A stretch of 38,600 bases of DNA. Origin: Candidatus Levybacteria bacterium GW2011_GWA1_37_16. Its GTDB lineage: Bacteria; Patescibacteriota; Microgenomatia; Levybacterales; UBA12049. Of the stretch, positions 5,369 to 14,847 are shown piece after piece. How positions within the stretch are numbered: the stretch's first letter is position 1; each line of letters opens with the position of its first letter. The stretch lies in NCBI GenBank assembly GCA_943354875.1, contig CALRDJ010000004.1, positions 1 through 38,600 on the forward strand. The letters run 5' to 3'. Under the pieces are notes generated by a model. It made no database searches. It worked only from the letters and a program-made list of their open reading frames with translations, and had not been told where the DNA came from. The translations under genes and the position numbers were made by a program.

Positions 5369-5897
5369 TTATTTCGAGTCTACGGATTTAATATCCGATG
5401 CATCATTGTTATTGAATACATCTTCTACCTCATTTATTTCTTCTCCTTTTACAGGAACTGCCACCACTATTCCACCTTCGTTTACTCTAGTTTCGTATAA
5501 CTTAGATTCATCTTCGGTTAATCCTAAGTTAGCGAATCCACCCAGCAAACCTCCTGCAACTGCTCCTGTAGTAGCTCCAGAAACGGTTGTTGCGACTGCA
5601 CCAGTCAAGCCAAGTGCTGCAGCAATAGGACCACCTATAAAGATAGCTCCAAGTCCAGGAAGTACCGCTGCTGCAACGAGACCAGCTAGTCCTCCAAGTA
5701 TCAACCCTGCGGTTGCACCTGAGGTAGCTCCCTCTGCTACATCTGTACCGGCACTTTTTTCTAGTACTTGTCTATCTTCTTTGTTTTTAAGAATAAATGG
5801 ATAAATCTTTTGGATTATATCCCAACTCCTTTAGGTCGGAAATTGCAGATTCTGCATTTTCTCGATCTGTAAAAACTCCTAGTACTGTTTTCTTCAT
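5369..5897 (-). pseudogene. GSP17M/YflT-like glycine-zipper protein gene with a +1 frame break
   Basis: From an ATG at 5897 with an excellent Shine-Dalgarno (AGGAGGTGA, 8 bases upstream), 36 codons read as the start of a GSP17M (YflT) domain: Val-Leu-Gly-Val-Phe, then Asp-Arg-Glu-Asn-Ala-Glu. A TAA (5787-5789) then stops this frame. The next frame continues without a gap as the rest of the same family: about 60 residues of Gly/Ala-rich helix pairs (glycine zipper), then Glu-Ser-Lys-Leu-Tyr-Glu and Gly-Gly-Ile-Val-Val-Ala-Val. One base too many between about 5787 and 5839 would explain this. It is a mutation, a sequencing error or a programmed +1 shift. The intact C-terminal part argues for a recent event or recoding. 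Homologues are general-stress proteins of unknown mechanism. Confidence 0.7.
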
Positions 5898-6002
5898 ATT
5901 ATTTCTCACCTCCTTTCTTTTCTTAATCTGGATCAATAATAGGAAAAACAAATTAAAGTACCATGATAGTTAAGTAAGAGGAATGTAAGATGCGAGGATT
6001 TC

Positions 6003-6024
6003 AGTAGTTAATTATTCTGCCGTA
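6003..6024. repeat. Degenerate direct copy of the ftsZ 3' end (outer left att candidate)
   Basis: Twenty of 22 bases match 13610-13631, the last codons, stop and first downstream bases of ftsZ, in the same orientation; only the two central bases differ (AT against CC). On the minus strand it reads as a Leu-Arg-Gln-Asn-Asn-stop tail. It lies about 7.6 kb from ftsZ, with an integrase and accessory genes between. I read it as the displaced att half-site left by site-specific integration. Confidence 0.65.
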
Positions 6025-6067
6025 AGGATCTGACTCACATTGCTAAAGGAGAACGAGCCTCGCCTTT

Positions 6068-6100
6068 TTAATTTCGTTGACGTAAAAATGCGGGAATTCC
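6068..6100 (-). repeat. Second copy of the ftsZ tail-coding sequence (inner left att candidate)
   Basis: Read on the minus strand, this encodes [10 protein letters not shown]-stop; the real FtsZ ends [10 protein letters not shown]. Five of the nine shared codons are identical and the other four differ only synonymously. A 12-base block, AAATGCGGGAAT, is identical at 6086-6097 and 13633-13644 and is a good candidate crossover core. No complete gene surrounds it: the frame is closed by a TGA about 100 bases upstream and has no ATG. Confidence 0.7.
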
Positions 6101-6111
6101 TAAGACAAGTC

Positions 6112-6182
6112 CTTTCTTTGAAGCTAATTTCAAACTAAAGCACCCTATTGAAAAATTTACCTTTTTAAGCCTTCGAAGAAAG
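6112..6182. other. Long-stem hairpin upstream of the reverse transcriptase gene
   Basis: Bases 6112-6123 pair with 6171-6182 over 12 positions (11 Watson-Crick, one G-T), enclosing 47 bases, with further partial pairing just inside. It ends 35 bases before the -10 box of the reverse transcriptase gene. Several Abi/UG reverse transcriptase systems use a nearby structured RNA, so this is the first candidate for one here. I see no independent promoter clearly driving it. The rest of the 5898-6228 gap holds the ftsZ-tail copies and the Shine-Dalgarno of the 5897 gene. Confidence 0.45.
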
Positions 6183-6213
6183 AATAGTACATTTCAGCAA
6201 AAATTTCAATCTC

Positions 6214-6222
6214 TGGTATAAT
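6214..6222 (+). promoter_or_regulatory. Extended -10 promoter of the reverse transcriptase gene
   Basis: TGG-TATAAT followed by exactly six bases and ATG at 6229 predicts a leaderless mRNA. The -35 position holds only a weak match (TTCAGC at 6193-6198). Confidence 0.65.
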
Positions 6223-6228
6223 TCACCC

Positions 6229-7722
6229 ATGAAGAATACGATTCTAGATATAGACCATGATGAAGTAAACAAATTTTTCTTAAATCAAGATTCATATATC
6301 ACTACTGAGATACCTCCCTATTACAGGTTTAATCGAATACTTTCACTAGTTTCTAAGAAGATGAACGGCTCTACAGTGATGGAAAAACGTCTGGAAGCAG
6401 CAAAAAAAAATAGCAATGTTAACCATGTAATATACGGGAACAAAAATGGAAAATATGAATGGCGTAAGTTTGAGCTTATACATCCTGTCCTATATATATC
6501 CTTAATCAACACCCTGACCAGTGAAGAATCATGGAAAACTATTCGAGATCGATTTGAAGAAATTGGTCAAAATAGCTCAATTGAATGTATGAGCATACCA
6601 GTACTCCCCAGAAATAAACAAAAACAAAAAGCCTCACAGATAACCGAATGGGTTGAATCTATGGAAAAAGAATCCATAAAACTTTCTTTGGATTATGAGT
6701 ATCTTTTTCAAACAGATATCTCAAATTGCTATGGATCAATTTACACTCATTCTATCTCATGGGCTCTCCACGGCAAAGAAGTCGCAAAAAATAATAGGAG
6801 ATATAAAGACCTACTAGGCAATAGGATAGATTGCCATCTCCAAGCTATGTCTTACGGGCAGACGAACGGAATTCCCCTAGGAAGTCAGGTTATGAATTTT
6901 ATTGCAGAGATAGTTTTGGCATATGCAGACGAGAAATTATCTGAAAAAATAGGCAGACGTATAAAAAAAGGTGATTATCATATTTTGCGCTACCGTGACG
7001 ACTACAGAATATTCGTACGGACTCCCTATAATGGCGAGTTCATTATGAAAGCATTAAGCGAAATATTGATTGATCTTGGGATGACACTAAGTGCAAAAAA
7101 AACCATTAGGAGTGAAAAAATTGTCATTGATTCAATCAAGCCAGGCAAAATTGCTTCTTACCATGAGTTAACACCTAAAGTATTTACTCATCATTCGCTA
7201 CGAAAAGAGCTTCTTATGATTTATGAATTTGGTACTAAATTTCCTCACAGTAGAATCATTGATAAAAGACTGGAACACGTCCTTAAAGCCACAGCTCCAA
7301 ATATACTTCAAGATAATTATGAGGAAATCGTTGCCATACTTACAAACATAGTTTTTGAAAATCCTAATTCTTTTCCAGTAGCAGCAGCCCTAATAAGCAA
7401 AGCTATTTATCCACTTAAAAAAGGAGAGACAAGAAAAATATTAGATAAGCTTTTTAGGAAAATTCATCTACTACCAAACTCAGGAATTTTAGAAATCTGG
7501 CTACAAAGGATAACAGCGGCAAATAAAGTTGACTATCCGTACTACGAAAAGCTCTGTTCCGTAACAAAAGGGGATAAGGTATCACTATTCAACTCAGAAT
7601 GGATTATTAGTGATTCTATGAAGCAGATAGTCGAGGAGACACTAATTGTCGACCCTGAAGAGATAGAAAATCTCGATAGGATTATTGAAAATAAGGAAGT
7701 GGAACTATATAGACCTTATTAA
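6229..7722 (+). CDS. Reverse transcriptase of the Abi/UG (defence-associated, DRT-like) type
   Basis: 497 residues. Palm motifs are visible in order: motif A with Gln-Thr-Asp-Ile-Ser-Asn-Cys-Tyr near residues 163-170, followed by Tyr-Thr-His-Ser-Ile; motif B as Gly-Ile-Pro-Leu-Gly-Ser with a downstream Ala-Glu-x-x-Leu and Asp; and the catalytic Tyr-Arg-Asp-Asp near 260-263. Leu-Ser-Ala-Lys-Lys-Thr follows as motif D. The Gly-(Ile/Leu)-Pro-x-Gly motif B and a helical C-terminal region of about 190 residues without a maturase domain fit the Abi/UG groups that include phage-defence reverse transcriptases. I cannot assign the exact group. It stands alone on the plus strand inside the putative element. 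Codon use looks more A-rich than in the wall genes. Confidence 0.85.
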   Translation: MKNTILDIDHDEVNKFFLNQDSYITTEIPPYYRFNRILSLVSKKMNGSTVMEKRLEAAKKNSNVNHVIYGNKNGKYEWRKFELIHPVLYISLINTLTSEESWKTIRDRFEEIGQNSSIECMSIPVLPRNKQKQKASQITEWVESMEKESIKLSLDYEYLFQTDISNCYGSIYTHSISWALHGKEVAKNNRRYKDLLGNRIDCHLQAMSYGQTNGIPLGSQVMNFIAEIVLAYADEKLSEKIGRRIKKGDYHILRYRDDYRIFVRTPYNGEFIMKALSEILIDLGMTLSAKKTIRSEKIVIDSIKPGKIASYHELTPKVFTHHSLRKELLMIYEFGTKFPHSRIIDKRLEHVLKATAPNILQDNYEEIVAILTNIVFENPNSFPVAAALISKAIYPLKKGETRKILDKLFRKIHLLPNSGILEIWLQRITAANKVDYPYYEKLCSVTKGDKVSLFNSEWIISDSMKQIVEETLIVDPEEIENLDRIIENKEVELYRPY

Positions 7723-7990
7723 CGCTCTGCGTCGCAGAAGGTGAGATTTATGACGCGGTGTTGAAGCTAGAGTGTGATTCTGGAGGCCTTCCCTATCCCA
7801 TAGCATGAAAATAGCAAGGGTTTGATTAGGTCTGATCTCTTTCTAAGACTTCCCTGTCTTAACGGGGAATAATCGCTTAGCATCACTCATCCAGAAAGCA
7901 ATCCCGCTGTAGAATTTACTCGTAAAGGGGAGAGCTTTTATGGTAGTAAGGGGTTGGTGTAATTCCCGCCAAGATTTTTTCTGTGCGAAT

Positions 7991-8248
7991 TTATCTGAAT
8001 TTTTTAGGAGTTGTCTTAAAAGGATTAACGGTGCCCATTTTGCCACTGAAAGGGTTTATGTTACCTTTTGAAGAGAAATTATCCAGCTTTGATTTGTTAG
8101 GTGATGTTTTATAATGCGGAGCAACATAACTACCATTTTTTTTCGTGTAACCTTTTACCCCTTGTAACGCTTCTACGCTTGGTACAGAGGCTAAGGAGAA
8201 AGATGTTATTAAAAGAAATGCTAGTAAGCCAAAAAGAATCTTCCTCAT
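7991..8248 (-). CDS. Small secreted protein with GYTKKNGSYVAPHY-type motif
   Basis: 85 residues from the ATG at 8248, which is chosen because TATAAT (8255-8260) ends six bases upstream; an upstream TTG is less likely. Residues 1-27 form a signal peptide (Lys, then a long hydrophobic stretch, ending Ser-Val-Glu-Ala). The mature part has the Gly-Tyr-Thr-x-Lys-x-Gly-x-Tyr-Val-x-Pro-His motif, then Gly-Asn-x-Asn-Pro-Phe-x-Gly-Lys and Gly-Thr-Val-Asn-Pro-Phe. I know this motif set from many small exported bacterial and phage proteins of unknown function. It is exported, possibly surface-bound. The 268 bases between the reverse transcriptase stop and this gene hold only a short TCTG/CAGA hairpin and no convincing gene. 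Confidence 0.75.
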   Translation of the reverse strand: MRKILFGLLAFLLITSFSLASVPSVEALQGVKGYTKKNGSYVAPHYKTSPNKSKLDNFSSKGNINPFSGKMGTVNPFKTTPKKFR

Positions 8249-8272
8249 AAATTTATTATATAACAATTATCT

Positions 8273-8620
8273 CTATTCATTCTCGTCAACATATGATTGC
8301 ATGCCCTCCCTAAATGACTCAGAATTGCCCGAATAGTCATCGACATCATCTTGTGTTATACCCTTCTCCTCAGCCCACTCATAACCTGCCTCATGTCCAC
8401 TACAATCCTCTGTACAAGGATCTCCGTTAAATTCTAGGCCATTTGTTGTATCAATATTTTCCTCCGTTTGCTCAGATTCAATATCCTCATCAGGATAATC
8501 ATCAGAATTAACGGTAGAGACTGATGAACTTTCGCTTCTTGCAGTGCTAGAGCTTGATGAAGAACTAGAAATGAATAAAATTAAAATAGAAAAAGTAGCG
8601 ACTATTAAAATCCACTTCAT
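8273..8620 (-). CDS. Secreted or anchored acidic protein with Cys/Gly-His-Ala-Gly-Tyr motif
   Basis: 115 residues. A hydrophobic segment at 3-18 is followed by a run of eight serines and an acidic linker rich in Asp, Glu and Ser (to about residue 65). The C-terminal 45 residues contain Cys-x-x-x-Cys-x-Gly-His-x-Ala-Gly-Tyr-x-Trp-Ala and later Ser-x-Ser-Phe-x-Glu-Gly, a small domain seen in many exported proteins of unknown function. In relatives I recall, further cysteines sit near the second half; here those positions are not Cys. Membrane anchoring by the uncleaved N-terminal helix is likely. Same strand as its neighbours, 24 bases from the next gene. Confidence 0.65.
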   Translation of the reverse strand: MKWILIVATFSILILFISSSSSSSSTARSESSSVSTVNSDDYPDEDIESEQTEENIDTTNGLEFNGDPCTEDCSGHEAGYEWAEEKGITQDDVDDYSGNSESFREGMQSYVDENE

Positions 8621-8637
8621 ATAATTACAACTCGTGA

Positions 8638-8841
8638 CTATTTTAGCCTACAGTACGACTTATGACAATGATACTGATTTAAATTTACCCCATATTTAGC
8701 ACAATAACTCTTACTTTTTCTGCAGTGGTGCCCGCCATTCCTATCTAAACCACCAGGAGATGCTTCTGCGGGTCGTGCCGTAGTCAATGAGAAGGAAAAC
8801 ATTAATGCAAGAGCAATTAAACTAAGAAAAACCTTTTTCAT
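8638..8841 (-). CDS. Small secreted Cys/His-rich protein (YHCH-type motif)
   Basis: 67 residues from the ATG at 8841. That start is preferred to the in-frame ATG at 8859 because TGC-TATGAT lies six bases upstream of it and would overlap the longer version. The signal peptide runs to about residue 27 (Ala-Glu-Ala). The mature part, Gly-Gly-Leu-Asp-x-Asn-Gly-Gly-His-His, ends in Tyr-His-Cys-His and three more cysteines, like the small zinc-binding YHCH segment found attached to secreted nucleases. It is much shorter than those nucleases and has no catalytic domain, so only metal binding and export are inferred. Confidence 0.7.
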   Translation of the reverse strand: MKKVFLSLIALALMFSFSLTTARPAEASPGGLDRNGGHHCRKSKSYCAKYGVNLNQYHCHKSYCRLK

Positions 8842-8848
8842 GACCTGA

Positions 8849-8953
8849 TCATAGCACATATCTACATACTGTCGTCTGGTTTGGGGGATTTTTTCTAAGT
8901 TCCTGCTGAACCCGCTGATAATTCAGGTACTCTTTCCAGGCTTGCTTGAATGC
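8849..8953 (-). pseudogene. Possible coding remnant
   Basis: This minus-strand frame reads Ala-Phe-Lys-Gln-Ala-Trp-Lys-Glu-Tyr-Leu and continues for 34 codons with a protein-like, amphipathic composition, but it has no start. It is preceded in frame by a TAA (8954-8956) and about 17 further plausible codons. It overlaps the promoter of the 8841 gene. It may be the decayed end of an element gene. No family is recognised. Confidence 0.3.
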
Positions 8954-9012: not shown

Positions 9013-10050
9013 TTATATTGGATACTGGGAATTACACGTGATTACGGCCTGATCGTAGTATCCCTGACTTATTTGTATACATGCAGGACCAGTGCTACTC
9101 TGCATGCCATATAGATTTATACACTGTTGTTTCTGATTATTGAACGTAAGCGCTGCATCAGTTTTACATTCCTGATTGAGCTCAGAATTATTATTCTGCT
9201 GTTGTATTACAGGATCAGGAGTAACTACAGCCTGTGTATTGCTTGATGGAATGTATGGCTTGTCGGAGCTCTTAAATGAATCACAAGAGGATTGCGTTAA
9301 TTGATACGTTCCATAACTAAGAGTACACGTTACTAATGGCTGTGCAGAAGAACCTGTCTGTGTAGGTATTTGTGGCGGTTTAGTATTGTGTAGGGCGGTA
9401 AGTGCATTTTGATCTTGCACACACTTGTCTTTTGAATTATAAAAAAGCCACTGAGGACCAATTTGACAGCAGGTTGTCTGGGAACATGCATTTTTTCTTA
9501 ACCGAACACTTCCTCCCCCACAGTTACTGCTTATGTTACAGGTAACGAATGGGTCTGGGTCAGGAATAGGGGTAGGGGCTTTATAAACAGGCTGAGCGAC
9601 AGTAGGAACCGCATATACAGGAGCGCTTGTTGGTACTTCTATTTCTGGCGCTAGAGATTGAGGCACAGATTTCGTATACAGCCCGAGTACGAAATTTAGT
9701 GCAGCGTCGTTCGTACTCAAGAGGATGAGGAACCCCACGATAATCACTGCCAATACAAGGTTTATCCACGGAAGCACTCTTTGTATTTTATCTTGCTCAA
9801 CCCATTTTTTAACTCGAAAATAAGGTTTCACTTTCCCCATCTTTTTAATAGAAACTCCTTTGTCTCCAATGCTTAGATAGTCATAGCCTCTATTTTCAAA
9901 CTCAGCACGTAAGGCTCCATGATATTCTCCTCTTGCACTTACCCAACCTGGATTTCCTACATCTCGATTAAAAGCATCTATAAGTTCTTTATCGCTCATG
10001 GCCTTAAACCGTTTCTGAAATTCATTATAGTGTCTTTGTATCTGTTTCAT
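9013..10050 (-). CDS. Single-pass membrane protein with exported Cys-rich region
   Basis: 345 residues. Residues 1-75 form a small cytoplasmic domain (Met-Ser-Asp-Lys-Glu-Leu-Ile, Trp-Val-Ser-Ala-Arg, Glu-Phe-Glu-Asn-Arg-Gly-Tyr-Asp), similar to short hypothetical proteins of phages and plasmids. One transmembrane helix follows at about 93-115. The exported part has a Pro/Ala/Val-rich linker and then about a dozen cysteines, including Cys-x-x-x-x-Cys-Cys, probably forming disulphides. The function is unknown; the build suggests a surface receptor or binding protein. It is the third gene of an operon behind 10668-11204 and 10063-10671 (12 bases downstream of the latter). Confidence 0.65.
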   Translation of the reverse strand: MKQIQRHYNEFQKRFKAMSDKELIDAFNRDVGNPGWVSARGEYHGALRAEFENRGYDYLSIGDKGVSIKKMGKVKPYFRVKKWVEQDKIQRVLPWINLVLAVIIVGFLILLSTNDAALNFVLGLYTKSVPQSLAPEIEVPTSAPVYAVPTVAQPVYKAPTPIPDPDPFVTCNISSNCGGGSVRLRKNACSQTTCCQIGPQWLFYNSKDKCVQDQNALTALHNTKPPQIPTQTGSSAQPLVTCTLSYGTYQLTQSSCDSFKSSDKPYIPSSNTQAVVTPDPVIQQQNNNSELNQECKTDAALTFNNQKQQCINLYGMQSSTGPACIQISQGYYDQAVITCNSQYPI

Positions 10051-10062
10051 TTATAAAAACTC

Positions 10063-10671
10063 TTACAGAGCATGTTTTCTGTCGTGAAGATAAACCCCGT
10101 ACTGCTTTTGGATTTTCTGCATTTCTTTCTCTGTGAAATTTTTGTTTTGCCAGAATCCTCGTAACTCGTAACTGTCGTCTGCAAGCTTATAAATCCACAC
10201 ATTAAAAAGTCTGTCCTGCTTATCTTGGAAAATGATATTTATCTCCTTACCGCCTGCGACACTATCATTTATCCCGAAAACAATAAATTTGCTTTTATAA
10301 TAGTCTTTACTAAAAGAGTCTAAGCCAGCAATGGTTCCATCCTCTGCTTTATCTGGCGGTATCGCAAGTAACTCTATCCCTTCATTTTTTCCTGCTAAAT
10401 AATTAACAAAAGCTTTTCTGATATGTAAAACGAAGGGATTAGTATACGAAGTATAATAGCTCTGAAGTTGTTCTTCAGTAAAATGGAGTTCCTGCACCTT
10501 CTCTTCTGTTGGCGCTACCGCGAGGCTAATAGCTAGCTCCTTTCCCGTATGGGTCGTTGAATTTTTACCACTGCTTCGATAGGACACGAGGAAAAAACCT
10601 AGCAATAGGATGACTACGGAAAGTAATGTTATTGTCTTCTTGCTTATCATTCTATACGACCTGCTCCTCAT
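10063..10671 (-). CDS. Membrane-anchored exported protein of unknown function
   Basis: 202 residues. A basic N-terminus and one hydrophobic helix (about 10-31) precede a soluble domain of about 165 residues with mixed helix and strand character. It has no cysteine and no recognised motif. It could be a signal anchor or a cleaved signal peptide. The ATG overlaps the stop of the upstream gene by four bases (ATGA), so the two are translationally coupled. An internal ATG at codon 8 is an alternative start. No function is assigned. Confidence 0.6.
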   Translation of the reverse strand: MRSRSYRMISKKTITLLSVVILLLGFFLVSYRSSGKNSTTHTGKELAISLAVAPTEEKVQELHFTEEQLQSYYTSYTNPFVLHIRKAFVNYLAGKNEGIELLAIPPDKAEDGTIAGLDSFSKDYYKSKFIVFGINDSVAGGKEINIIFQDKQDRLFNVWIYKLADDSYELRGFWQNKNFTEKEMQKIQKQYGVYLHDRKHAL

Positions 10672-11204
10672 GAGCTCTCACAAGGAATTCCGTTATTGTC
10701 TGAATCAAGATTGTATGGATCATATGTTTCTTTGTGTTCCACAAGAATCGTTCTTAGGGTAAAATAACTGTTAGGATCATCACTATTATCTAGAATTCTT
10801 AATGCACTCTGATTGTTCATACCCCCTATATATTCATAAAACTGTCGGGCTTCATCTCTGTCTGCGAAATCGGAGCATCGAATATCTGATTTATTATCGA
10901 TTAGCGTATCAAACATCTTCTTAAGAGGGTCATACTCACGTGCTAATACAAAACACGTGTTAATATCCTCTCGCGTCACTGTAGGCTTGTATACTTCCTT
11001 ACATAGTTCGTGTAGATCAGAAATATTCATAACCGATGTGTGGTTTTTTATTCCAGACTTTTTAATATATGAACTTAACGGTCTCCAGATCATGATACTA
11101 AGTAAAAGTAGTGATATGCTAGCCATCAAAATATACAAAAAATTGATTCTTTTTGTATCTGATTGACTGTTGTAATTTTTTTTATTAACTTCTGTATGAT
11201 TCAC
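10668..11204 (-). CDS. Membrane-anchored protein with split Excalibur-like motif
   Basis: 178 residues from a GTG at 11204 with GGAGGG about six bases upstream. A transmembrane helix lies at about residues 21-42. The exported part contains Cys-Ser-Asp-Phe-Ala-Asp-Arg-Asp-Glu-Ala and Tyr-Ile-Gly-Gly, and about 40 residues later Asp-Pro-Tyr-Asn-Leu-Asp-Ser-Asp-Asn-Asn-Gly-Ile-Pro-Cys-Glu. These are the two halves of the Excalibur calcium-binding domain, which are normally contiguous; here they are separated by an insert. Export and calcium binding outside the cell are inferred. First gene of a three-gene operon, directly behind the folded RNA leader at 11205-11332. Confidence 0.65.
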   Translation of the reverse strand: MNHTEVNKKNYNSQSDTKRINFLYILMASISLLLLSIMIWRPLSSYIKKSGIKNHTSVMNISDLHELCKEVYKPTVTREDINTCFVLAREYDPLKKMFDTLIDNKSDIRCSDFADRDEARQFYEYIGGMNNQSALRILDNSDDPNSYFTLRTILVEHKETYDPYNLDSDNNGIPCESS

Positions 11205-12442: not shown

Positions 12443-13456
12443 TCAAGATTTAATAGAAATATCAAATCTTATTCTCCCACTTTCTTCGATCATATTGTAT
12501 TCGAAGCGCGGATCGCTTTTTAAATGTAGGTTTTCAAAATTTTCTTTTATAATTCTTAGAATCTCTTGTGGGTCGATGTTTTTTCTCACCATTGGATGTC
12601 GCATAGCTGCTCTTTCCAGTGTCTTGTCCGCTAAGTGCATGTAGGTACTGTAGGTCGTCTGAATGTCTTTGTGCCCAACCAATGTTGCCACTTCCGTAAT
12701 GGGAACTCCTGCCTCAAGCATGTGCGTAATATACGAATGTCTGAAGTTGTGAGGAAACGTACGCTTAATTACTCCTGCAGCGATGGCTCTCCGTTTTAAA
12801 TCCGCGCTAAAATCGGTTACCTGAATCTGAGACTCCATAGAATTTCTAAAAACTCTATCTTTTGGCTTCCTATCTCTTATCATCTCTATCAGATTGCTCT
12901 TCAGTGGTTCTGTAAAATACGCTGTCCTATTTTCATTTGTCTTCGTGTTCACGAACGTGGCTTTTCCTGCACTTATATCGACGTGCTCAGCCGTTAATTC
13001 TGCCGCCTCTGAATAACGGCACCCTGTATAAGCAAGAAACATGGTCATCGTTCTGAAACGAAAATCTAAAAAATTACTGTCTTTTCCATGAAACTTACCA
13101 TAGGTAAGTTTTGTATTCAATATCTTTTCAATTTCTTCAGGAGTAAAAATCACGATGTCTGGCTTGGTCTTCTTAAACGATTTGAAACCATCGAAGAAAT
13201 CTGAAGGAAATCCCCTGTCTTTACAGTATAAAACCAGTTGTCGGAAAGCAAACTGGTAGGTGTTGAGGGTGTTGTTCTTTAATCTTTTCTCCTTTAACTG
13301 GAGAAAGAAGAGTTCTACATTTTCTTTCGTTAATTCTTTATCTGCAAACCACTCATTAATGATCCCGACACGACACATGCAGTGACGGATACTCTGCGGT
13401 GCTAAACCGAGTTTAATCGTAATAAATGATCTGAAATCTGATTCGACGATCTGCAT
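12443..13456 (-). CDS. Tyrosine recombinase / phage-type integrase
   Basis: 337 residues. The N-terminal SAM-like core-binding domain (1-105) is followed by the catalytic domain. The catalytic set is present: Arg in Thr-Gly-Cys-Arg-Tyr-Ser-Glu, the His-x-x-Arg box as His-Asn-Phe-Arg-His, a second His in Val-Gly-His-Lys-Asp, and the nucleophile Tyr in Tyr-Ser-Thr-Tyr-Met-His. About 50 residues follow the tyrosine, longer than in XerC/XerD. It would integrate and excise the surrounding element; its position 160 bases from the ftsZ 3' end, next to the repeat, matches int genes beside their att site. The start region lies in a hairpin that hides the ribosome-binding site. Confidence 0.9.
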   Translation of the reverse strand: MQIVESDFRSFITIKLGLAPQSIRHCMCRVGIINEWFADKELTKENVELFFLQLKEKRLKNNTLNTYQFAFRQLVLYCKDRGFPSDFFDGFKSFKKTKPDIVIFTPEEIEKILNTKLTYGKFHGKDSNFLDFRFRTMTMFLAYTGCRYSEAAELTAEHVDISAGKATFVNTKTNENRTAYFTEPLKSNLIEMIRDRKPKDRVFRNSMESQIQVTDFSADLKRRAIAAGVIKRTFPHNFRHSYITHMLEAGVPITEVATLVGHKDIQTTYSTYMHLADKTLERAAMRHPMVRKNIDPQEILRIIKENFENLHLKSDPRFEYNMIEESGRIRFDISIKS

Positions 13457-13609: not shown

Positions 13610-13644
13610 AGTAGTTAATTCCTCTGCCGTAGAAATGCGGGAAT
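13610..13644. repeat. ftsZ 3' end att candidate (right side)
   Basis: This covers the last nine codons, stop and five following bases of ftsZ. Positions 13610-13631 match 6003-6024 (20 of 22), and 13633-13644 match 6086-6097 exactly. Taken as the right-hand attachment site. Confidence 0.6.
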
Positions 13645-14793
13645 GTCCCAGACATCTTCTTTTTCCGTCTCTCGTTCCTTTTCTGGCTGAGTCTGAGAAA
13701 TCGGCTGACTGGATGAGGAGTAATTATTATTTGAAGTCACTGGCGGATTCACCGGCTGAGGCATAGAATTTCCCTGTCCTCCCATACTTATATTCGTCAG
13801 GCGTTCTGGGGTATTTATAAATCCTTTTAGCGTCTGCTTCGTCGAGTCAAAACCAGTAGCGATGACGGTGATCTTTATCTGATCTCTCATACTCTCATCG
13901 ATAGTGGCTCCGAAAATGATATTCGCATCTGGATCCGCTGCATTTGATATGATTTTCGCTGCTTCGTCCACCTCTGCCATAGTAAGGTCAGGTCCACCGA
14001 TGATGTTGAAGAGCACTCCGCGAGCACCATCCATAGAAATTTCTAGTAATGGCGAGGCTATCGCTGAACGAGCTGCTGTCTGTGCCCTGTTCTCTCCTAC
14101 TCCGCTTCCTATTCCCATAAGAGCTGATCCAGCATTTGTCATGATACTTCGGACGTCTGCGAAATCGACATTGATGAGTCCTGGTAACGTGATGAGATCA
14201 GAAATTCCCTGTACGCCCTGAGTCAGTACTGAATCTGCGACTTTAAAAGCTTCCAGTAGTGATAATTTTTTATCGACCACATCGAGGATTCTTTGGTTTG
14301 GAATGACAATCAAAGTATCTACTTTATCTTTTAGATTTTCTAGTCCATCTTCAGCCGAAACCTGTCGCCTAGTTCCTTCAAAAGTAAAAGGCTTCGTGAC
14401 CACTGCGATGGTCAATGCACCGACTTCCTTCGCGATACTCGCGATCACCGGAGTAGCACCAGTTCCGGTACCGCCTCCTAGACCAGCGGCGAGAAAAACC
14501 ATGTCAGAACCTTCCAGGAGACTCTTTATTTTCTCTGCACTTTCCTCAGCTGCTTGTCGTCCGATATCAGGGTCTCCACCAGATCCCAAACCCTTCGTGA
14601 GATTATCACCGATCTGAAGTTTTGTCGGAGACTGGTTGAGAAGGAGTGCTTGCGCATCGGTATTTACAGCCACGAAATCGACTCCCTGGATTTGTCCTGA
14701 AGCGATCATGGAGTTTATAGCATTTGTACCACCACCACCAACACCTAGTACGCGGATCTTAGCAAAATTCGTAGTTTGAGGCTTAATCAGCAT
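13615..14793 (-). CDS. ftsZ: Cell division protein FtsZ
   Basis: 392 residues, tubulin-like GTPase that polymerises into the Z-ring. The start is the ATG at 14793; a TTG two codons earlier is less likely. The glycine-rich nucleotide loop (Gly-Val-Gly-Gly-Gly-Gly-Thr-Asn-Ala) is near residue 20. The tubulin signature Gly-Gly-Gly-Thr-Gly-Thr-Gly is near 108, and the T7-loop region Asn-Val-Asp-Phe-Ala-Asp-Val near 209. A disordered Gln/Ser/Pro-rich linker (about 330-380) leads to the conserved C-terminal peptide Asp-Ile-Pro-Ala-Phe-Leu-Arg that binds FtsA and other partners. That tail overlaps the inferred attachment site of the neighbouring element. A 389-base gap with repeats separates it from ftsA, so it probably has its own promoter. 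Confidence 0.98.
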
Positions 14794-14847
14794 TTGCAAG
14801 AATCCTAACAGATCGTATATTTTTTTGCAAGCCCTGTTTCGATTGTC

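Follow-up and report, generated by a model that had tools for sequence, protein, structure and literature searches.

An AbiP2-type reverse transcriptase carried as cargo of an ftsZ-targeted integrative element in a CPR bacterium

Results

An AbiP2 enzyme encoded in the window

The window analysed here is a stretch of 38,600 nucleotides from Candidatus Levybacteria bacterium GW2011_GWA1_37_16 (contig CALRDJ010000004.1). At 6229-7722, on the plus strand, it contains an uninterrupted open reading frame with an ATG start, which encodes a reverse-transcriptase-like polymerase of 497 amino acids. The PADLOC profile for AbiP2 (PDLC03744, 489 positions) matched residues 2-495 of this protein with an E value of 9e-173 and a score of 573 bits, the runners-up being Drt6 (192 bits), UG14 (190 bits) and AbiK (110 bits), with Drt4 also among the best matches. 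Comparison with the solved structure of Abi-P2 (PDB 7r08) using phmmer gave an E value of 1.8e-77 over residues 5-494 of the query. As the alignment runs through residue 494, the protein is predicted by homology to have the helical C-terminal domain that replaces the thumb. A structure model computed from the single sequence, without an alignment, reached a pLDDT of 42 and was set aside.

With regard to a possible DGR enzyme, the best PADLOC matches were Abi/UG families throughout. The group II intron model (TIGR04416) gave 41.8 bits and the retron St85 reverse transcriptase model 25.1 bits, both far below the curated cut-offs of 300 and 235, respectively. No class 2 DRT profile was among the best matches of the enzyme and no conserved cis-encoded ncRNA accompanied it, which sets it outside class 2.

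When eight AbiP2 proteins were aligned, Tyr31, Asp163, Asp257 and Asp258 were invariant, as was the catalytic Tyr-Arg-Asp-Asp block (residues 255-258, nucleotides 6991-7002, plus strand). Tyr31 (6319-6321, plus strand) aligned with Tyr61 of Abi-P2, while the dispensable Tyr46 of the latter is replaced by Phe16. Abi-P2 works alone in vitro; its Tyr61 primes DNA synthesis and the Y61F mutation inactivates the enzyme (PMC9508834).

In a first phylogenetic tree, AbiP2 stayed unresolved in the presence of a very long outgroup, and the tree was rebuilt after this outgroup had been dropped. The second tree united all AbiP2 sequences (support 91/97) and placed the window enzyme beside two AbiP2s from alphaproteobacterial plasmids and the one of G391, a further genome from the window's phylum (98/96); it is a small tree, with long outgroup branches and several distant relatives. 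A previous, sequence-only reading of this DNA had proposed an Abi/UG-type reverse transcriptase with an intact Tyr-Arg-Asp-Asp and a helical C-terminal region, to be checked by phylogeny and to be abandoned if the enzyme fell among group II intron or DGR proteins. The profile scores, the full-length match to 7r08 and the tree all bear this proposal out. Judged by its sequence, the enzyme belongs to AbiP2 and with it to class 1 of the UG/Abi reverse transcriptases; it is the copy, in a CPR bacterium, of a known anti-phage enzyme, and the kind of enzyme is thus not new. Class 1 enzymes synthesize DNA without a nucleic-acid template, ncRNA partners being the mark of class 2 (PMC13174585, PMC13275509).

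AbiP2 was rare in the phylum, with 3 occurrences in 379 sampled genomes, including that of the window, and among the 60 nearest relative genomes the enzyme was present in the window genome alone. A search by peptide pattern returned no close relatives in the viral and genome collections searched. Relatives were found on plasmids of Bacillota and Pseudomonadota and in P2-like prophages. The nearest one, from G391 (41% identity, 627 bits to AbiP2), belongs to a type I restriction operon whose genes run HsdM, SLFN, HsdS, AbiJ_NTD4, AbiP2, HsdR. Its start overlaps the preceding gene, so that there is no intergenic space and no room for a leader.

A mobile element bounded by two ftsZ ends

The reverse transcriptase gene lies in an element of about 7.5 kb bounded by two copies of the 3' end of ftsZ. 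The integration target is ftsZ itself (13615-14799, minus strand; Pfam Tubulin and FtsZ_C), and sequence comparison identified its 3' end (13615-13662, minus strand) as the proximal attachment site. The distal copy (6068-6115, minus strand) is 75% identical to the real end over 48 nt, with synonymous codon changes, and both carry one identical 12-nt core, AAATGCGGGAAT (13633-13644 and 6086-6097). A tyrosine integrase is encoded at 12443-13456 on the minus strand (Pfam Phage_integrase, E 2e-30), 158 bp away from ftsZ. An integrase and flanking attachment repeats, by which integrative elements are recognized, are thus both present in the window, and the earlier description of the locus as a CPR element can be sharpened to these boundaries. 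No phage structural genes were seen in the element. We infer that it is mobile today.

The remainder of the element encodes small secreted or membrane proteins, all on the minus strand (7991-8266, 8273-8620, 8638-8859, 9013-10050, 10063-10671 and 10668-11204), none of which matched a defence family. The product of 7991-8266 matched phrog_29674 (E 2e-19) and that of 10063-10671 has a 41% relative in a Levyibacteriota element. Inside the element there is also a LOOT RNA (RF03000; 11223-11333, minus strand; 77.9 bits for a gathering threshold of 46.4). A second copy was found at G000:C40, and 9 of 60 relatives have a LOOT RNA. A general link between LOOT RNA and integrases was not supported, an integrase being near only 4 of 11 copies.

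A further copy of the ftsZ tail is present beside the element, at 5990-6024, about 60 bp beyond the first, and extra copies also occur downstream of ftsZ in several relatives (L051, L055, L067 and L072). They are probably scars of older insertions. Elsewhere in the window, a general-stress (YflT-like) gene (5369-5890, minus strand) appears to be split by a frameshift near 5800, and two adjacent genes at 528-2397 share a repeated domain of ~115 aa (29% identical).

Targeting of ftsZ in other genomes

The five close chromosomal relatives of the integrase (41-71% identity), from CPR genomes of Levy-, Davies- and Gottesmanbacteria and two further MAGs, all adjoin ftsZ on its downstream side. Four lie within about 145-240 bp of the ftsZ stop codon and one at ~0.9 kb, behind a Fic/Doc module. 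The assignment of the window to CPR bacteria drew, in this analysis, on the named organisms among these integrase relatives and on the small genome size of related organisms. Together, loci with this integrase family or with FtsZ tails are L157, L158, L159, L160, L161, L153 and L155. Two contigs showed an FtsZ tail alongside an integrase with no ftsZ gene there: an IMG/VR contig (integrase 74% identical) and a phage-like contig in G024 that encodes terminase subunits (integrase 29% identical). Inspection of more distant integrases in relatives (29 loci) showed an FtsZ tail at the G024 locus only.

The Levyibacteriota element (L157) is collinear with that of the window, save for an inverted integrase module, and it carries two more FtsZ tails. 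Two FtsZ tails of L157 (9195-9957) enclose nothing but a Fic/Doc gene and a gene for an antitoxin-like protein of 80 aa, a unit that resembles a small cassette without an integrase. In the IMG/VR contig (L155:3914-6787), one FtsZ tail is flanked by two different integrases, one 74% like that of the window and the other like that of the G024 phage; compared with the window, the integrase module has the opposite orientation.

In G026, a stretch beyond the ftsZ stop codon matches the flank on the outer left side of the window element, which fits an insertion between ftsZ and this flank in the window. G026 was rejected as a plain empty site, because it is not clean, having its own copy of the left-end sequence (region A, see below) about 2.5 kb further on. 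No near-identical strain with an exact empty site was found among the sequences compared. A literature search, which was not exhaustive, returned no report of ftsZ as an integration site.

A cargo slot inside the conserved left end

The left end of the element contains a conserved sequence, region A (6085-6172), which recurs in four other copies: at G000:C12 (74%, E 1e-7 to 2e-7), in the Levyibacteriota element (L157), in G026 (L147) and in Gottesmanbacteria (L161). The cargo next to it differs from copy to copy. At G000:C12 it consists of a proteasome-like gene and a second, small gene, at L157 of an apparent HNH-type gene (assigned from its sequence, with no match in Pfam), in G026 of an AAA ATPase gene and at L161 of a small gene without assigned family. 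Beyond the cargo, at the opposite side of the slot, region B (7726-7806) is 65% identical to G000:C12, where it occupies the same relative position around other cargo. About 70% of the window's genome (732 kb) was read directly in this work. The reverse transcriptase is swappable cargo in a slot just inside the conserved left end of the element.

Region B holds a 13-nt palindrome, TCTGCGTCGCAGA (7726-7738), which reads TCTACGTCGTAGA at G000:C12 (L025:2498-2510), with a matched change in both arms. This palindrome, at the slot's far edge, possibly binds a protein. We also considered that regions A and B might be copies of each other, as integron-like direct repeats, and rejected this idea because 64-100 of 500 shuffles gave equally good matches.

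The reverse transcriptase gene is preceded by an extended -10 promoter, TGGTATAAT (6214-6222, plus strand), whose TATAAT hexamer (6217-6222) is separated from the ATG by 6 nt. In the window genome, a TATAAT ending at -9 to -4 was found for 40 of 530 ORFs, while the other bins contained 1-9; the exact spacing of the reverse transcriptase was the most frequent one (18 ORFs), and no Shine-Dalgarno sequence was present among ORFs with the hexamer at -9 to -4. Over the 530 ORFs of the genome as a whole, TATAAT showed a strong peak ending 6-8 nt before the ATG and Shine-Dalgarno sites were few. Leaderless transcription seems to be common in this organism. Because the hexamer sits at the commonest leaderless spacing of the genome, the transcript of the reverse transcriptase should begin at its ATG and be leaderless.

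The upstream hairpin

The sequence-only reading had noted a hairpin upstream of the gene (6112-6182), which overlaps region A, and its geometry was exactly as described: the arms 6112-6123 (CTTTCTTTGAAG) and 6171-6182 (CTTCGAAGAAAG) form 12 bp including one G-U, the loop has 47 nt, and the hairpin ends 46 nt before the ATG. The suggestion that the enzyme might work with this RNA was not supported. A lack of hairpin conservation among close homologues had been named in that reading as grounds for giving the proposal up, and such a lack was observed. Were it correct, an ncRNA containing the hairpin, or else one from 7723-7990, would bind the reverse transcriptase and template or scaffold DNA, as in DRT2, DRT9 and DRT10.

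Taken by itself, the stem stands out weakly beyond chance. Among dinucleotide shuffles of the nearest 129 nt, 3% produced a stem with 12 or more pairs, which places the real stem above the other 97%; for shuffles of the whole 329 nt upstream, the share was 11%. Stems of this length also occur in 11 of the 117 tiles taken from the window. With its context (6050-6228), the hairpin folded no better than shuffles (z-score +0.9). In a two-sequence alignment, the G000:C12 copy keeps 8 of the 12 pairs, with 3 double changes, as a partner RNA would; yet this covariation was equalled by 63 of 500 shuffles and the RNA of that copy adopts another fold. Over the four other copies of region A, 5, 6, 8 and 6 of the 12 pairs are left, and the covariance check proposed for the hairpin came out negative, RNAalifold finding no consensus structure in the five-copy alignment. 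These copies adjoin other genes, the AbiP2 of G391 has no intergenic space in which such an RNA could be placed, and AbiP2 is a class 1 enzyme. Furthermore, the predicted start of transcription at the ATG would leave the hairpin outside the mRNA, upstream of the promoter. The downstream stretch 7723-7990 showed no excess fold stability relative to shuffles (z -0.06), and only region B is shared there, without a reverse transcriptase; it was therefore rejected as a structured RNA. The hairpin is part of the left end of the mobile element and not an RNA partner of the enzyme.

Discussion

The reading that we strongly favour, and consider very probable, is that the window contains a lone AbiP2 anti-phage polymerase, carried as cargo by a ~7.5-kb ftsZ-targeted element, with the hairpin being no component of the enzyme. 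Of the alternatives raised earlier, a one-gene system or one that works with flanking RNAs, the former stands, as expected for AbiP2, and the partnership with the hairpin falls. Untemplated, protein-primed synthesis, assembly as a trimer and protection against phage are hallmarks of AbiP2 and would be expected of the window enzyme as well. By analogy with Abi-P2, phage infection would trigger the enzyme, which would start DNA synthesis on its own Tyr31 and, acting alone, make untemplated single-stranded DNA; this activity would halt or kill the host cell and thereby bring the infection to an end (abortive infection). How untemplated DNA blocks phage is still unexplained for class 1 as a whole (PMC13275509). 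The tyrosine integrase would insert the element at the 3' end of ftsZ, and the reverse transcriptase, placed in the slot at the left end, would be read leaderlessly from the left-end promoter.

It is unlikely, though worth weighing, that the reverse transcriptase serves the element instead of phage defence, by stabilizing it or by excluding competing elements or phages from the ftsZ site. Its position as cargo beside the left end would agree with such a role, as would the attachment sequence shared with a related phage and the fact that Abi-P2 of E. coli is itself carried by P2 prophages. Elsewhere, however, AbiP2s occur on plasmids or within restriction operons and have no element of the window type around them, and the exclusion of rivals would also count as defence, so that the difference concerns mainly the target. 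We regard it as improbable that the gene is a passenger or a decaying gene without present function: it does occur in the window genome alone among the 60 nearest relatives, but the ORF is full-length, its catalytic and priming residues are complete and its promoter has the modal spacing. An ncRNA partner, from either flank, is very improbable in view of the comparisons given above.

Beyond the enzyme as a lone AbiP2, we consider it somewhat probable that CPR bacteria host a family of integrative elements, with one related phage or more, whose integrases direct them to the 3' end of ftsZ, an essential gene. Such elements would re-supply the C-terminal peptide of FtsZ and swap a single cargo behind a conserved, promoter-bearing left end, and small units with an FtsZ tail on either side, like the Fic/Doc one, would accumulate in tandem. 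The cargo set would then comprise the AbiP2 reverse transcriptase of the window, the HNH-type gene of Levyibacteriota, the AAA-ATPase of G026 and the proteasome-like pair of C12. The newer part of this work is this ftsZ-targeted element with exchangeable cargo, rather than the reverse transcriptase.

The present data extend AbiP2 to CPR bacteria, which have been little studied for phage defence, with a precise vehicle and promoter. They also indicate that what seems to be a reverse-transcriptase-associated RNA can turn out to be the end of an element. The integration hot spot at the 3' end of ftsZ offers a sequence by which mobile elements, phages and defence cargo that can be exchanged may be located in CPR genomes generally.

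Comparison with known systems

Class 2 DRTs (DRT2, DRT9 and DRT10) belong with the window enzyme to the superfamily of defence-associated reverse transcriptases; they use a conserved cis-encoded ncRNA, whereas none is supported for the window enzyme. The AbiP2 of G391 differs from that of the window in being part of a restriction operon with an AbiJ-like gene and in its overlapping start. As for the vehicle, the phage contig G024:C7 resembles the window element in having a tyrosine integrase (29%) next to an FtsZ tail, but it has terminase and connector genes, which the window element lacks. The closest parallel is Abi-P2 of E. coli P2 prophages (P2-EC30 ORF570, PDB 7r08), to which the window enzyme is homologous over its full length. 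Identity is about 33%, the host is a CPR bacterium and the vehicle, unlike a P2 prophage, is an ftsZ-site integrative element in which no phage structural genes were seen. Both enzymes have the Arg-Tyr-Arg-Asp-Asp-Tyr-Arg-Ile-Phe block, the priming tyrosine and, as predicted for that of the window, the helical C-terminal domain, and both are encoded by a single gene that travels as cargo of an integrative element.
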